Below are positions 35,201-60,302 of a stretch of 64,000 nucleotides of DNA, piece after piece. The notes below the pieces were generated by a model. That model was not told the origin of the DNA. It was given only the letters and a program-made list of their open reading frames with translations, and searched no databases. The stretch's first letter is position 1. Each line of letters starts with the position of its first letter. Position numbers and translations under genes: made by a program. This DNA comes from Sipunculus nudus. Its lineage: Eukaryota; Annelida; Sipuncula; Golfingiida; Sipunculidae. The stretch is from NCBI GenBank assembly GCA_026874595.1, contig CM049317.1:60360618-60424617 (forward strand), in the 5' to 3' direction.

Positions 35201-38200
35201 TGGATACCTTGGGGCTTCATAGAGCTGAGTTAGGTATTTCCGGCCCTCCTGCTTCCACTTTATTTCAGCCGCCCTCGCTTCCTGTGATTCCGGCTGCTCC
35301 GGCGGGCTGTTCTGCAATCCTGGCTGGCCGTCCACATCTTTGTTTCAGACTCCGGCTGCTGAGCCACCTGCGAGCTGGTTCCTGTGGCTTCTCGGCCCGA
35401 TCCTGCCCCTGGCCGACCGCGGCTTCTTCTTTTTCAGCCTCCGGTCGTTCCGGCGCCCTGGGATTCATTGGTTCCCGCTTCAAGGGGTTCTCAGGCTTCA
35501 CCTTCAGCTTCTGCTGCCGATCCCACCCTGGCTACAGCCCAGTGGTCAGTGATCGGGCTCCAGCGCCAGGATTGGCTTGCGCGCAAACCTGCGCTGCTGG
35601 ACCTAGTTGCTACCTCCAAGCAGGAGACGCAACCAGACAGTCCTAAGTTCCGTCGGCTACGGCCTTGGACTTCCCCAGTGTTGGCGTCCGGTTTCTAATT
35701 GATTCCGGCCGCCCTTCATTCGCCTTCCTCCACACGGCAGGTTTATATGGACTTCAGCGTTATTATGGTTGAACTTTAAGGAGAACGCCACGCCGCCGTC
35801 TCAGGGTCGATCTCGACCACTACCAGGGTCCTGGTACCACCCAGGTCTAATAAGGCTTGGTCCCCCGGCACCCTCTGGACCTCCCGAGGGTACTGGGCTT
35901 CATATTTTGATCGTTTGATCCCTTTTCCGGATCATCAGGCCGTTCCTTAGGCACTCATGCGTCTAGAGTCTGGGCTGGAATAAACATTCGCGGATGGGAA
36001 TCCCTTCAGTTCTTCATCTGTACCGACCATTCACTGTCGGATTTAGAGGGGCTCGGCCGTCCGGCGGCGGGGTTGGTGACTGATTTCCACTAACCTCCTC
36101 GCCGGCTCAATGGATCACAACTGACCACACTACATGATATCTGTCAGGCGTCAGCCAATGACTGTGCTGACCACCGGCAGGTTGATTGGCATATTGTAGA
36201 TCTTGTATTTTACTGCACCTCTCGGCCTGTATCCATTCATTAAGTACCTTGAAACCCGAACTCCAGCTGAATTGGCTGAGCTTTACGCTCCACCTTTTCT
36301 GGGGTATCTTCTGTTTGGCCACCACCTTAGGCCCCTCTTAGACCGTGCTTTGGATCGTTCTAGCCGGCCCGCCCGCTCCCGTTCTGCAACTCCTCCTCCA
36401 CGCCCATCTTCCCACATTCTGCGGTCGCGGCCTTCCTGTATGGCCCTCTCATCAGCTCGTCGGGCCCCCGCTCCATCGTCCCGTCCTTCCGGCCGAACCA
36501 GTCGTGCCCAGCCTTTTCCCGGTTGTTCCTCGGGCCAAGGTTTGACCCAGAATTGTCTCATTAGGTCCGGTTGCCGCTCTTCTAAGCGCCCCCTTTTCCT
36601 GCTTGGGCGGGCATCCCGTCCCATCATTTAATTCTTAGCACATTCAAGTTCAGGTTCCGTTTTCTGTTTTTGCACGATCCTCCTGTCACCCTGCACCCCT
36701 TCTACCCTCAGTCTTACACCGATCCGATCAAACGTCTCGCGTTGGAGGAGGCCATTCAGTCTCTGCTCGACCAGGGGGCGATTCTCGAGGTTCCTCCTTC
36801 CACCCGGGGGTTTTCCTCTCCTTTTTGCTGGTTCAGAGACCGCACGATCCTCCTGTCACCCTGCACCCCTTCTACCCTCAGTCTTACACCGATCCGATCA
36901 AAAGTCTCGCGTTGGAGGAGGCCATTCAGTCTCTGCTCGACCAGGGGGCGATTCTCGAGGTTCCTCCTTCCACCCGGGGGTTTTCCTCTCCTTTTTGCTG
37001 GTTCAGAGACCGCACGGACGGGGGCGCCCGATTAACAATCTCAAGCGCTTCTATTCGGTCATTAACTCACCGCCCTTTCGCATGTTCAATATTCATGCGG
37101 TTCTCCACCTTATCAGTCAGAAGGATTGGGCGTTCAAAATATGACCTTTCGGATAAATATTGTCACATTTCGATCCATCTGTCGTCCCTACCGTTTCTTC
37201 GGTTCACCTACCAGAACAGCGTGTATAAATTACGTGCCCTTCCATTCGGGATCAATGTGGGCCCTAGATTTTCCGCTGCAGGGAATAGAGAAGTCGTTCA
37301 CACGGTCACTCATTACCTCTGCTCCCAGTGCCTATCTGCATGTGCTTCCTCACCTAGCCGATTGGCTTGTCCATGCGGCCGCCCGCTCTTTCTTACTGGC
37401 GCACCGCTCCCGGGTTCTCGATTACTCAGGAACCTTGGCTTTCTTGTCAATACAGAGAAGTCCCAGCTCACTCCCACCCCGTTCTTACAGTTTCTGGGTG
37501 TGACTCTCGATTTTACGTCAGGGACTGTGTCTCTACCGCGCATTTGCTCTAAAGCTCAGGACGCAGATTTGTTCCTTTCTTGCGTCTGGCCATTTCGATT
37601 CTCGTGCCGCTGCTTCTCTTCACGGCACTCTCAACTGGGCCGCCGATTTCGTTCTGTTCGGTCGGTTATATTCCATCCGGTTCAGCCTCTCCTGCGCGCT
37701 CACGGCCTTCTCCATCTCCATTCGGTTCGTTCTGTGGTCCTCCCGTTTCCACTCGTGGCGGACCCTTCGCCCCTGGCTGGACCTTCCTTTCTCCATCAGG
37801 GAGTTCCTTTCTCTCAGGAGATTGATTGTACGGTATTCACCGGCTCATCTCTCCTCAGTTGGGGTGCCATCTGGCAGATCTCCGCGCCTCGGGCGTCTGG
37901 TCCCCGTCGGCACGCCCCCTCATATCAATGTCCTCGACCTTCGCGTTGTCCGTCGCGCAGTCTCCCGTTGGTCCCCACCGCTTACTTGGCCGTCACATAC
38001 TCGTCGTGACCAACCCCTCCACGGTGGTGGCATTAATAAACAGGCAGGGCGGTACTCGGTCTCCCTCACTGATGCAGGTGACCTACCTCTTGTTCAATCT
38101 ATGTATCACGCTACGGGACTTAGTCCGTGGGTCTCATCTTCCGGGCGTATTGAACTTCCTAACAGTCGCCCCGTGTCTCTACCACCGCCAGTCGTCCTTC

Positions 38201-40014: not shown

Positions 40015-43000
40015 GGTTTGGCAGGATCTGTATTGATTTAAAGTTTAGAATACAATACTTACAATACCTAATTAATTTCTGGATCAGTCATTAAATTAGG
40101 ACTTATATCACAGTCGATATGTATCAAAGTCTTTGTGTACAGCTAATGCATGGGCCATTTTTCGAAACCATGCACAAATCAGGTTTGTAATGAAGTTGAT
40201 TTCAGAGTTCATCTTAGTTGATGGGGCATCTTATTCCCGAGGGATTCATATTCTCAATTATTTCACATTCGCGAATATCACAAAAATAAAAACCTCATAA
40301 ATAAAAAGGCAACCACAGTATAACCGAACTTTTTATACCTATGCCAGGTGGCAGAGGATAACACCTTTGTTGCTGCTGGTTGGATTGGACTGTCTGCAAC
40401 ATTTCTCAAATTGTTATATTTTGATGAAATTTTGTCAATTGTTTGGAATACACTCAAGAAACTCAGTTACTTTAAAATAATAAAAGTTTGAGCAATTTTG
40501 ACATGTTTGCAACACACTCAGTGAACTCAATTACTTTTTGAGCAAAAGTTTGAGCAAGTTAAAGAAAATCTTGAGATTACAGCATGATTTGAACTGAAAT
40601 GTGCTGAGTTTGTATCTCTTTAATTCTAATGAATTTATTTAAATTCTTCTCTCTCCATAGCTTTGATATCAAAAGTGCCAACTTGGATGACAGCAAGAGT
40701 TTTGTGGTGGACTACACTCCCTTCCTGGTGCTACCAAACAGGTCAGGGCTTGATAATTACATTTGTTTTAAAATCTTATATATCTCAACATTTTAAAATA
40801 TGTTTCATTTTATGTAACAATTCCATGTGCAACTGTTTGACAGTCCAGCTGATTGTTAAAAATAATAAGAAAAAGTTGGGTTTTTAGCTCAGCTGACTTT
40901 CAGTCATGCTGAGCTATAGCGATCACTCTTTATCCGTCGTCCGTCTGTCCGTCTGTCTGTCTGTCTGTCTGTCCGTTAACCTGGCACAAATCGTAACCTC
41001 TGGACTTAGAATCTTGTAACTTGAGATTCTGAGAGGTAGATGAAAAATCTCCTTGGAAACCAGAAATTAGGTCTCTGTTACCCATATCCTTCGAGCTATT
41101 GGGCCCCAAAGTACCCCCCAGAATAGTCAAAAATTTCATACAAAAACTTCAAGATCTCATTAATTACATCACTGATGGTCATGATTTTTGGCATACATAT
41201 TGATCATGAGATGTTTCATCAGTTTCTGCAGACTGGTGACACCACCTGTATTTTTTCAAATTTTTACAATTTTTTTTCTCTATTTATGAGACCTTTAAGG
41301 ATGAAGTTATCTGTCAACAGGGTACAAATTGTAACGACTGGACCTAGAATCTTCATTCTTGACACACAGGGAGACCCATGAAAAGTCTCCATGCAAACCT
41401 GAAATTAGGTCTCTGTTACCCATATGCTTTGAGCTATGGCACTCCAAAGTACAGCTTGGAATAATGGAAAATTTGATACAAAAGCTTAAGTATCTGAACA
41501 ACTAAAGCAGAGATCACCATAATTGTATGCATGGATATTGATCACGGAATGTTTCATCAGTTTCTGCAGACTGGTGGCACCACCTATATTTGTTCTTTTT
41601 TTTTACAAATTTTTTTCTTTATTTTTGCGACCTTTAAAGATATGAACATCTGTTAACAGGGCACAAATCGTAACGACTGGACGTAGAATCTTCATTCTTG
41701 ACACACAGGTTGACCCATGAAAAGTCCCCATGAAAAACTGAATTTAGGTCCCCCATACCCATATCCTTTAAGCTGTATGGCTCCAAAATACCCCTAAGAA
41801 TAATGAAAAATTTGATACAAAAACAGCAGTATCTCAGTAACTATAACACTGATGGTCATGATTTTTGCCAGACATATTGATCATGAGGTGTTCCATTAGT
41901 TTCTGCAGACTGGGTGCGCCACCTCTATTTTTTCAAATTTTTACGAATTTTTTCTCTTTTTTTGAGACCTTTTAAAGATGTGGTTTTCTGTCAACAGGGT
42001 ACAAATCGTAACAACTGGACCTAGAATCTTCATTCTTGTCATGCAAGGAGGCCCATGAAAAGTGTCTGTGGAAACCTGAAATTAGGTCTCTGTTTCCCAT
42101 ATCCTTTGAGCTAAAGGACTCCGAAGTATCCCTCAGAATAATGAACAATTTGATACAAAAGCTGAAGTATCTGAACAACTAATGCAGAGATCACCATGAT
42201 TCTTTGCATGGATATTGATTATGGAGTGTTTCATCAGTTTCTGCCGACTGGTGGTGCCACCTATATTTTATTCAATTTATCGAATTTTTTTCTCTATTTT
42301 TTAGACCTTTAAGGATGCTGTCATCTGTTTACATGGCACAAATTGTAACAACTGGACCTAGAATCTTCATTCTTGTGATGCAAGGAGGCCCATGAAAAGT
42401 GTCTGTGGAAACCTGAAATTAGGTCTCTGTTACCCATATCCTTTAAGCTATAGGACTCTGAAGTATCCCTCAGAATAATGGAAAATTTGATACAAAAGCT
42501 GAAGTATCTGAACAACTAATGCAGAGATCACCATGATTCTTTGCATGCATATTAACCATTAAGTCTTTTTATTAGTTTCTGCAGACTGGTGGAGCCACCT
42601 GCATTTTTTCTCTATTTTTGAGATATATAAATACAGACACAATCTTGGCCTGTTGGTTAATCTGTTTGATGCTTCAGTTGAATGGGTATATACTACCATT
42701 CAGATGTTAAAATTTTCTTTTGCGAATCTCTTCCCAGTCAGCTGAGCGTCATGACCAATGGGTCACTTGTTAGTCAAATATCACCAATTTTTAAATGGCA
42801 CACTTGATCACACTTTTAAATGGCTATTTACACACTGTACTCAGATCTCCAAAGTAACTACCATCTTGATCAATATGCAAATCTCAGCCGCATATGACAC
42901 CCATATTTAAGCCTACTTTCTTCAAACAAAAATTTATAAAAAAATAGTGTATTAATTGAGATTTATTTAATTTAATTTATCAAAATGATGTGCACAACAT

Positions 43001-46000
43001 TTCTTGAAATATTAATTCAAGAAGTAATCCAAGAGATGCCAAATTGTTCTGATGTAGCATTTTAAAGAAATTCTTTCCTTTTAAATAATTAAACAAAATA
43101 TAGTTTAACTCATCAGTAGGCATAATTTGATAATATATGAAACAAATCATGGATAAATAAAGGTGCAACTTCAAATTGTGAATTCTGGAGTGTTATATTC
43201 ATATATTTATTGCTTTGCAAATTTAAAAAATATATTTTATAAAAAAAAGGAAACATATCTGTGTGCATAATGTGATGTTACCGGACTAAATTACATATAA
43301 ATGTTGATGCAATTTAGATTTGTGAATCAATTTAAATATTCAGATATATATGATATACTGTAAATATAAAGTAAAATTTATAAACTTAAAAAAAAAGACG
43401 TAACAAAAGAAGAAATAGGATCTAATGCAAATATTTGTTCATTGTTTTCCTGTCTCAGTAGAATGGAAATTAAACTTTTTTGCTTTGTTTTCCATCTCTC
43501 TGCCTGTTTTTAAATATTTTAAAATAATTTCATTTAAATTAAATTTTATCCTTTACGTATATGCAGAGGTGCTGTAACTCCCACCAGTCCCTGTAAGCAC
43601 CATTGAATTTAATTCCATATTCTGTATTAATATCCAAAGGTGTTGTAACTCCCCCCCCCCCCCCCCCCCCCCCCAGTCAACATTGAGCCCTAGTTCCTGA
43701 GCACTGAGGATAGTATTATTGTTGCAACTTCAAAAATTCTATGGTGATGCAGTTATAACTGTTACAATCAGCTGAGCGCCGTGACCTATTGGTCCCTTGT
43801 TTTTTTCTTTCTCTATTTTTTAGCTACTAGTTGGTATCTTGTTGAGTGAACTGAAGGAATCATGGTCTCTTTTTTGGATTGTTTCAGGGAAATCATTCCA
43901 CCAATGCAACCAGCCAGGTCTTCTAAACAAAATGATGAAAAAGAGAAAGAAGAAAAGAGAAGATCTCTCAGTCAGCAGCTTATTCTCCAAGCAGAACAAA
44001 AGGTTTGTATGAAATCCATGAAAAATATAGACATCTGTGTGTAGATGTGTATCATAGAATAAAGAGTATCATTCAGTTGACTTCAGATTATACTTAAAGG
44101 GTCCTATTCATTTACCAGGTATGTTAAATATATAAAAATACCATTTATTTACCCTTGTACACAAGTTTAAATTAACTTGACCAGGCACGTTCACAGGCAC
44201 GTAACATAAACAAAGGAGGGTTATTTAGTAATATCAGACAGGGCACCACTAGGATGCATGCAGCGCTCTCTGTCTCTGTATAGAGACTGATACTGCATCT
44301 ACTTTTATCATAGACCTTTTTTGGTACACAATCTCCCAAGGGTTCACATTGGACTCTGACTGTTTTCAAGCATACTCCTTCACCTGAAAGTGCTTCATTC
44401 TTCACATTTAGTATTATTGTTGAGAACTGATATATATATATATAGATATTATTAACTTTTTTTACCTAGGTTTCTGTGAAGAATTTATGAAAATGATGTT
44501 TGCCCTACTTTCTTTGTTATCAGGGTTACTTTGAGGAGCTTGTGACACTGATGTATGTATTTCTGTTTTTGTTACCAGGGTTACATTGTGTTGCTTTCTT
44601 TGTCACCAAGGTTACTTTGACTAATTTGTAAAACTGATATACACATTGCTACCTTTGTCACCGGAGTTCTTTGTCTTCCTATCTTTGTCACCAAAGTTAT
44701 TTTGTGTTGCCAACTTTGTTTCCAGGGTTACCTTGTGTTGCTTTCTATGTTTACAGGGTTACTTTGAAGAGCTTGTGAAACTGAGAGAGATGCAGTTGGA
44801 GGAGGCTGTAAGTGACAGAGACATGTTACAGATGAAACTGAAGGACCGAGAGCAGGACCACAACCAAGAAAAATACCAGCTTGAGTCAGTTGTGCTAGAA
44901 CTCCAGGCTCAGATGTAAGTTTTTTTCCTTTCTTACACTAGTGGTATACCCTTTAATCATGAAATCACTTATGCAGCTTCTCGTGTAGATGGAGGAGAAA
45001 ACCACTGGCTGGTGCAGCAGGAAGCCCGTTTGTGCAGGCAAGTGTGATTCAGCCAGACACTCAATAGCAGGGACGAAACTGTCAATCCCCACTTTGTTAG
45101 CTTATATACGCTGTGGTCTCTAATTAATTAATATAATTAATGAATAAATATGAGGTTACAATTGTTTGGTACCAGAATATATGACAAATTCAAGAAACTT
45201 GCAAAATTTGATATTTCTTAATGATTGAAAGACAATGTGTACGTTCCCTTATATCATCCTACAAGGTAGTTGATTCAAGATCAAATTCAAATGCAAACCT
45301 TGCTGTCAATGCAGCAATTTCTGATGTCTTTTCATGTTTCTGTAATATGTTTTAACACAGTATAATAAATATGATAAATAATAATTATCAGTATGATCAG
45401 CATTTAAAAAGACTGTCCAGTGCCCATCCTGTTGTATTGAATGAATGGGCTGGTCAGGCTTGACGCTAGGGGGCACTAGTTGTTTGCCTGCAGTTTTTAG
45501 CTCAGCTGACTATAAGTCATCTGAGCTATAGTCATGGTCCATTGTCCATCGTCCGTCCGTCTGTCGTGCCGTCCGTCCGTCTGTCTGTCTGTCCGTCTGG
45601 ATGTCCGTCCGTAAGACTGGCACGTTTCAACACCGTTGGACCTGCGAATCTGAATTTCAGCATACAGTTAGATGTCCCCATAATCTCCTACCATGCCAAA
45701 AATTGGGTCAATAGGACTTCGTTCCTTTGAGATATTAAGGAAAAACCTCATTTTTTTATTTGAAATCTATTTTCACACTTTAGGACTGCCTAATATCAAA
45801 ACAACTCATCTGGTTTTCTTCATATTTACCATAAATATTCCTCTATATAGTTCCTATTTAATGCCAGATATTAAGTCAGTATTATATAATTTAAAAAAGT
45901 TATGGGCCCAAACATAATGGACTTTGTAAAAAAATCAGGAAGATATTTGGTCACTTAAGACCAAAAGTGGTAAAGGTAGGGACTTTTTTCCAGTAAAACA

Positions 46001-58041: not shown

Positions 58042-60302
58042 TGTATCCACCAAAATCAGAGTGGAACAGGTGAAGTGAGGCATGGATTGAGTGGCAAGGG
58101 GAAATAAAGTGAGGTGTGTTGCATATTAGCATGGATGTTTGCAGCCAAAATGTATGTAGGTTGCGCCACCTACCACAAAATCCAGAAAGCTGTCCAAGTT
58201 GTATACATATGCAAAATTTTAGGCAGATAAGTCAAACCACTACATGTATATGAGTGAATTTATCCCACAGCAGACAAACAGAAGGACTTGTGCAAAAATG
58301 GTGGCAGGTGGCGCCACCAATTTTGTGTATGATTAAGAGCTATGTGAGATCTATACACATGCAAAATTTCAGGGGGATATGTAAAAATCAGTCCTGAGAT
58401 ATAAGCCTGAATGTCTGCAGTGTTAACATAAATGTAGGTGGCACCACCTGCCAAAAAATCGAGAGAGCTATCCAAGATGTATAAACACACAAAATTTTAG
58501 GCAGATATGTCAAATTACTGCCGAGATATGAGTGATTTTATCCCATGGCAGACAAACAGACAGATGCTGTGCAAAAATGGTTGCAGGTGGCGCCACTAGT
58601 TTTGCATATGATAAAGAGCTATGTGAGATCTATACACATGCAAAATTTTGGTGCGATCAGCCAAATGGTTCCCAAGATATTAGCTTGGATTTCTGCAGCC
58701 TAAAATAGAATGTAGGTGGCGCCACCTGTAAAAATCAAGAAAGCTGTCCAGGATGTATAAACCTGCAAAATTTTAGGTAGATATGTCAAATTACTGCCGA
58801 GATAGGAGTGATTTTATCCCATGGCAGACAAACAGACGGACACTGTGCATAAATTGTTGCAGGTGGCGCCACCAGTTTTGCATATGATAAAGAGCTATGT
58901 GAGATCTATACACATGCAAATTTTCAGGAAGATATATCAAACAAGTCCAGAGATATAAGCATGGATGTCTGCAGCATGAACATGAATGCATGTGGCCCCA
59001 CCTGTCAAAATCAAGAAAGCTGTCCAGGATGTATAAACCTGCAAAATTTTAGGAAGATATGTCAAATTACTGCCATGATAGGAGTGATTTTATCCCATGG
59101 CAGACAAACAGACGGACACTGTGCATAAATTGTTGCAGGTGGCACCACCAGTTTTGCATATGATAAAGAGCTATGTGAGATCTATACACATGCAAATTTT
59201 CAGGAAGATACATCAAACCAGTCCGGAGATATAAGCATGGATGTCTGCAGCATGAACGTGAATGTGGGTGACGCCACCTGTCAAAATCAAGAAAGCTGTC
59301 CAGGATGTATAAACCTGCAAAATTTTAGGCAGATATGTCAAATTACTGCCGAGATAGGAGTGATTTTATCCCATGGCAGACAAACAGATGGACACTGTGC
59401 ATAAATTGTTGCAGGTGGCACCACCAGTTTTGCATATGATAAAGAGCTATGTGAGATCTATACACATGCAAATTTTCAGGAAGATACATCAAACCAGTCC
59501 GGAGATATAAGCATGGATGTCTGCAGCATGAACATGAATGTATGTGGCCCCACCTGTCAAAATCAAGAAAGCTGTCCAGGATGTATAAACCTGCAAAATT
59601 TTAGGCAGATATGTCAAATTACTGCTGAGATAGGAGTGATTTTATCCCATGGCAGACAAACAGACAGACACTGTGCATAAATTGTTGCAGGTGGCGCCAC
59701 CAGTTTTGCATATGATAAAGAGCTATGTGAAATCTATACACATGCAAATTTTCATGCAAATTTTCAGGAAGATACATCAAACCAGTCCGGAGATATAAGC
59801 ATGGATGTCTGCAGCATGAACGTGAATGTAGGTGGCGCCACCTGTCATAAAATCAAGAAAGCTATCCAGGATGTATACGCATGCCAAATTTCAGGTGAAT
59901 CAGTCAAACCACTGCAGAGATATAAGTAATTTAAACCGAAGGCAGATGGACAGATGGACACTGTGCAAACATGGTTGCAGGTGGCGCCACAATTTTCTGT
60001 GTATGTTATCCAAGGGCTATATTGTATAAAAATTTTTTCCTGATCAGTCAAATGGTTCCCGAGATATGTGGGTTTATGTGTGGAAATAAATGCACAAATG
60101 GAAGCTGGGCAGAGAGGAAAGGTCAGAGGTCAACGCCAATTGGTTAGGCACCAGTTCACATGACTTGATAATTGGTGCAAGTTTCCGAAAAATCGGTCCA
60201 GTAGTCTCAGAGGAGTTCTCCGGAAACTAATACGGCAGCGGGGGTGACGGTGGAACCCGGTCAAAAACATAGTATCTGCAAAACTTCGTTTTGGTGGATA
60301 CA
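58042..60302. mobile_element. Element with TGTATCCACCAAAA inverted ends and a seven-unit 276-bp tandem core
   Basis: TGTATCCACCAAAA at 58042-58055 and its exact reverse complement at 60289-60302 bound the block. Inside, monomers marked by RAGCTRTCCARGATG start at about 58187, 58465, 58741, 59017, 59293, 59569 and 59859, a period of 276 bp (the last step is 290 because of a 14-bp slip at 59747-59760). Each monomer has two GGYGSCACC boxes, often as the palindrome GGTGGCGCCACC. The central units are the most alike. No protein. Confidence 0.8.

Follow-up and report, generated by a model that had tools for sequence, protein, structure and literature searches.

The coding exon at 44757-44914 of the window (the whole stretch of 64,000 nucleotides of Sipunculus nudus DNA analysed here) is preceded by seven decayed head-to-tail copies of an intron end plus exon start, which occupy 44470-44756. 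This array is best explained as a decayed minisatellite of an intron/exon boundary, of the kind called a "mirage", and it is likely that it arose by tandem duplication over the acceptor and that its upstream copies are ignored in splicing. Rather than a switch, the array is probably a side effect of DNA duplication that has been tolerated. The earlier note on this DNA had considered both a minisatellite born at a splice site and a poison-exon regulator of a neuronal-type gene; the former is supported, as the unit is composed of intron end and exon start, genome searches found the array at this locus only, and unrelated arrays are present on other junctions of the genome.

Host gene and anatomy of the array

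The array is carried by a RUN-domain (RUNDC3-like) gene. The joined exon peptides (24151, ~27100 and 30695) match the Pfam RUN domain PF02759 at 2.3e-16, and RUFY3 is the best solved-structure match of the gene. Searches of Pfam with two exon peptides and of PDB with exon 44757-44914 alone gave no matches. The latter exon encodes GYFEELVKLREMQLEE and onward, and its protein matches the genome at one place. The tentative RUNDC3 naming is based on the motif QKGY.EELV.LRE.QL, which stands at the corresponding place in vertebrate RUNDC3A; the exon start would thus be ancient, and the copies would derive from it. The intron upstream of 44757 is 754 nt long. The features of the region are listed below, in which percentiles refer to the scores of 115 acceptors inferred in the Sipunculus nudus genome, from which the scoring matrix was built.

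43888-44002, + strand: preceding coding exon of the same gene
44425-44430, + strand: AACTGA in the intron flank; the same string lies in the exon at 44779-44784, at the end of the exon part of the long unit
44470-44523, + strand: copy c1, 54 nt; exon start and pyrimidine tract; acceptor-like AG at 44468-44469, 10th percentile
44524-44578, + strand: copy c2, 55 nt; exon start 26/28, CTGAT, GTATGT at 44553, pyrimidine tract and CAG; preceding AG at the 61st percentile
44579-44609, + strand: copy c3, 31 nt, short unit with shortened exon part; preceding AG kept, 74th percentile
44610-44664, + strand: copy c4, 55 nt; exon part 23/28; preceding AG lost (AA)
44665-44694, + strand: copy c5, 30 nt; preceding AG lost (GG)
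44695-44725, + strand: copy c6, 31 nt; preceding AG lost (AA)
44726-44756, + strand: copy c7, 31 nt; preceding AG kept, 41st percentile; gives the true acceptor its pyrimidine tract
44757-44914, + strand: true coding exon, source of the copied start, 158 nt, open frame; acceptor at the 91st percentile

The copies are of two lengths, 54-55 nt (c1, c2 and c4) and 30-31 nt (c3, c5, c6 and c7), and TRF likewise reported an 86-bp composite unit (55+31) at 44508-44704 as well as 31-bp units at 44646-44742 and 44702-44766. Copy c1 is the most decayed and is offset by one base, the first 28 nt of the exon matching it at 22/28 from 44469. Around the junctions, per-base agreement among the copies is about 0.76. 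A pyrimidine-rich tract is found in all seven, and c2 and c4 also carry CTGAT, which resembles the branch-point consensus, so that the long unit is a nearly complete acceptor module. The last copy is intact because it is the exon itself.

Comparison with shuffled sequence places this repetition beyond chance. A 35-mer across the true junction (-25 to +10 of the acceptor) was scanned over 44420-44731, a stretch that leaves out c7, and matched at four places with 29, 27, 25 and 24 bases, whereas no match in 2000 dinucleotide shuffles exceeded 24; places with at least 22 bases numbered four, against a mean of 0.02 in the shuffles. The first 28 nt of the exon, in turn, recur in the array with 26, 23 and 22 bases identical, whereas shuffled sequence reached 20 at most. 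The seven decayed copies that the earlier note had read from the letters are thus borne out at their positions, as are their two unit lengths (30-31 and about 55 bp), by both the copy starts and TRF, and the AG kept before four of them (c1, c2, c3 and c7).

Boundary arrays on other junctions

As a base-rate control, slices of 450 nt upstream plus 61 nt were taken for 110 of 126 kinesin exon matches, and 60 of 75 myosin matches were treated alongside; 16 kinesin matches (hand-picked, mostly long open frames and non-random) and 15 myosin matches were left unsliced, and overlap between some slices (L055 and L056) makes them not fully independent. An alignment test flagged 11/110 kinesin acceptors, 1/60 myosin acceptors and 1/90 donors, after which the sequences were read. 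Frame and acceptor score served to infer exon starts, which in the array cases were judged by eye along the coding frame. Arrays spanning the true junction were found at five of the 110 kinesin acceptors (L041, L045, L049, L053 and L061; paired locus labels are L041/L232, L049/L234, L061/L233 and L053/L235), a count raised to 7/110 by two weaker cases below the alignment cut-off, L108 and L073. A donor-side array is present at one of 90 exon ends (L147). By alignment and reading, boundary arrays were found at none of 60 myosin acceptors, and the class is therefore unevenly spread. The remaining flagged cases were dropped for want of a junction span, namely L018, L044, L059, L070, L078 (on its match range alone), L098 and the myosin case L230, in which the array is intron-only. 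TRF alone placed arrays touching the match edge at 7/110 kinesin acceptors (a set that includes L018 and misses L053), 0/60 myosin acceptors and 2/90 donors (L147 and L010). Separately, an acceptor-like unit of 17 bp resembling TCTACAGACCTTGATCT is present at 1043-1513 of L018 in more than 20 copies, which end just before a kinesin exon and carry no exon start.

The kinesin array units range from 31 to 72 bp. In L041, 32 nt of the 61-bp unit are exon start and are followed by CTAAT, a pyrimidine tract and, in most copies, TTTAG, with eight close copies upstream, while L061 has about 22 upstream copies of a 31-bp unit. The 72-bp array of L049 is broken by other sequence and then resumes, a 212-base query giving 24 alignments between C14:446167 and 451997. 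On the donor side, L147 carries at 16-511 about ten 52-bp units, most of them combining the exon end with a GTAAGT-like donor, and the array extends into the intron. When eight units were compared, the best unit-to-unit score was 19, against an average of 19.4 for the maxima of shuffled units; the units share no sequence, and the arrays therefore look like independent events. The 5' edges of the L041 and L045 arrays fall at AG|exon, a position not expected from a simple intron-plus-exon duplication unless loss followed. Array edges differ among the cases, and no single duplication mechanism was found for all of them.

Recurrence on several junctions does not by itself demonstrate a hot spot. 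Tandem-array coverage over the 450 nt upstream of kinesin exons is flat, at 7.5-10.7% per 50-nt bin, compared with 1.4-5.0% upstream of myosin exons and 1.4-3.4% downstream of kinesin exons. In deeper sequence at 30 kinesin loci, coverage is 6.1% (3863/63000 nt), and the window itself is covered at 2.5% for the same periods of 10-250 and at 7.9% for periods up to 500. Arrays overlap 4.5-6.4% of kinesin junctions, which is near the coverage of the deeper sequence, and no hot spot is therefore shown. Likewise, none of four Fisher tests fell below 0.05: kinesin acceptors against donors gave p 0.076 (7/110 vs 1/90) or, with strict cases, p 0.23 (5/110 vs 1/90), kinesin against myosin acceptors p 0.052 (7/110 vs 0/60), and all acceptors against donors p 0.27 (7/170 vs 1/90).

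Other repeats were recorded in the window. Large tandem arrays lie at 58123-59990 (276-bp unit, 6.7 copies) and 40975-42610 (338-bp unit, 4.8 copies), and the 276-bp unit holds GGTGGCGCCACCT, which is also present, as judged by eye, in the sequence interrupting the L049 array (L234). A near-perfect (99%) 170-bp tandem duplication at 36672-37016 lies within retroelement-like sequence at about 34.7-39.5 kb, which looks reverse-transcriptase-like by eye.

Decoy acceptors and alternative explanations

The true acceptor at 44757 is the top scorer within its array. On the kinesin genes, upstream AGs whose score equalled or exceeded that of the true site numbered 6/24 in L041, 5/13 in L049, 12/21 in L045 and 2/27 in L053, and 0/13 in L061, 0/21 in L108 and 0/16 in L073; in the first four cases, therefore, strength alone cannot select the site. 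The sites assigned as true in L045, L049 and L041 score low (0.4, 4.2 and 5.5, respectively, with the 10th percentile at 5.7), which makes the exon starts of these three less sure.

In the RUNDC3-like gene, c2 and c3 would be good acceptors by score, and some use of decoys is possible. The decoys might act as poison acceptors, which some cells would use to insert frame-shifting sequence, so lowering protein level via nonsense-mediated decay. Use of c1, c2, c3 or c7 would shift the frame and meet a stop at codon 7, 36, 14 and 14 past the junction, respectively, so that inclusion from any of the four AG decoys would bring a premature stop. The earlier note had c2 reading for about 30 codons before a stop, in which the stop holds and the count is slightly low (35 sense codons), and its frame shift and stop from c7 agree with a stop at the 14th codon. 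The GTATGT at 44553, the sole paired donor looked at, would give c2 a mini-exon of 29 nt that would also shift the frame. The middling to good percentiles of c2, c3 and c7 fit such use, as do excerpts of PMC4526556, in which repeat-borne donors of human IFI6 are described as used. Retention of AG in the array, however, is 4/7 against 4.0 expected from the per-base agreement, and thus the splice signals are not kept beyond neutral decay; excerpts of PMC3087553 have amphioxus mirages leaving splicing normal; and the same structure, with close copies, occurs on kinesin genes, which argues against a function peculiar to the RUNDC3-like gene. Over six arrays, AG is retained in 40/44 copies against 34.8 expected (with one L041 copy moved two bases by hand and two out-of-register L053 matches omitted), a slight surplus with which some constraint or recent homogenisation would be compatible. 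The poison-exon regulator proposed in the earlier note has found no positive support, and a poison-acceptor role is unlikely. Less probable again is that the repeated pyrimidine tracts form a binding platform for U2AF- or PTB-like proteins, which would tune exon recognition irrespective of decoy splicing: although every copy has such a tract, agreement around the junctions reaches only the 0.76 given above.

Origins outside the gene are more remote still. A dispersed satellite or transposon end could have landed beside the acceptor and come to resemble it by chance in this minisatellite-rich genome, and a pattern search allowing at most two mismatches did return 53 matches genome-wide, against 17 for a backward-read control. 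The surplus, though, includes recurring look-alike strings elsewhere, and the five matches inside the array comprise all three with 0-1 mismatches and only 2 of the 50 with two. Together with a DNA search of the genome that found the array sequence at one place, and with an exon-derived part matching the coding exon at 26/28, this renders such an origin very improbable. An assembly artefact is the least credible of all, since artefacts give near-identical copies, whereas these agree at only about 76% and fall into two unit lengths.

Origin, known boundary repeats and meaning

Under the boundary-minisatellite reading, the founding event would have been a short tandem duplication across the RUNDC3-like acceptor, taking about 27 nt from the end of the intron and about 28 nt from the start of the exon, possibly at the microhomology AACTGA (44425-44430 and 44779-44784), which could also be chance. 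The unit would then have multiplied by unequal exchange or slippage, a partial deletion would have given rise to the short unit of 30-31 bp, presumably in that order, and the copies would have decayed without detectable selection. As for splicing, the donor of the exon most likely pairs with the nearest acceptor (exon definition), and the array would be tolerated because the spliceosome uses the copy closest to the exon's own donor. Judged from the sequence, such nearest-acceptor pairing across the exon would be the simplest account, and the abstract of PMC9225289 reports that sites closest across the exon are preferred where flanking introns are large. The upstream intron is just 754 nt, however, so that intron definition, which favours upstream acceptors, may also apply.

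Boundary repeats of this kind are already known in chordates. The mirages of amphioxus are described in excerpts of PMC3087553 and PMC3902484 as minisatellites of intron/exon boundaries; the former proposes them as an origin of new introns, and its Adh3 data and globin RT-PCR suggest that they leave regular splicing undisturbed, while the latter also lists PGBD5 and refers to Adh and troponin C. As in amphioxus, the unit here spans an authentic boundary, with intron and exon both represented (c2 at 26/28 and c4 at 23/28, plus pyrimidine tract). Several copies are present, and unit length varies with the gene, at 30-55 bp in the seven RUNDC3-like copies and 31-72 bp in the kinesin arrays, within the range of about 10-160 bp in mirages (10-72 bp in Adh3 and 150-160 bp in globins of amphioxus). 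Many, not all, copies keep the splice dinucleotide (AG or GT), and both acceptor-side and donor-side forms occur. The likeness is one of sequence features, and it differs in the protostome host and in the strong decay of the RUNDC3-like copies.

Other systems share part of this structure. Variable minisatellites of human segmental-duplication genes lie in some cases at exon-intron boundaries, where they may form novel introns and often accompany alternative transcripts, according to excerpts of PMC2812944; unlike the present arrays, they belong to recent primate paralogues, and the repeat often stays exonic. In human IFI6 (6-16), the minisatellite unit likewise holds a splice site, but on the donor side, and its units are reported to be used as multiple splice donors (Turri et al. 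1995, as cited in excerpts of PMC4526556). The Rogers model, cited in excerpts of PMC3087553, derives intron gain from tandem duplication of AG/GT proto-splice sites; there, too, boundary duplication makes extra splice signals, whereas the RUNDC3-like array has no new intron. A literature search, largely of titles and abstract openings, gave no report of boundary arrays in a protostome.

In the Sipunculus nudus genome, mir-2 gave five matches over the Rfam cut-off, four of them clustered at G000:C11:13593869-13596068, and none over the cut-off in control genomes. This microRNA is not known outside protostomes, which would place the animal among them and apart from amphioxus.

It is conceivable, at somewhat less than even chances, that tandemly repeated splice junctions form a persistent type of variation throughout the genome of this protostome, present on about one in 20 acceptors in some gene families and reaching dozens of near-identical copies, from which the spliceosome reliably picks the last. 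Such arrays would offer a test of proximity in splice-site choice and a reservoir of shifted boundaries and new introns. Competing copies of one splice site at differing distances from an exon were reportedly compared in the duplicated-site constructs of Reed and Maniatis in 1986, which were designed, unlike these natural arrays; L041 and L061 would be natural experiments on the choice among near-equal acceptors. If this holds, boundary minisatellites would arise repeatedly in distantly related animals, at a rate that can be measured, and their arrays would be raw material for change of intron/exon boundaries.
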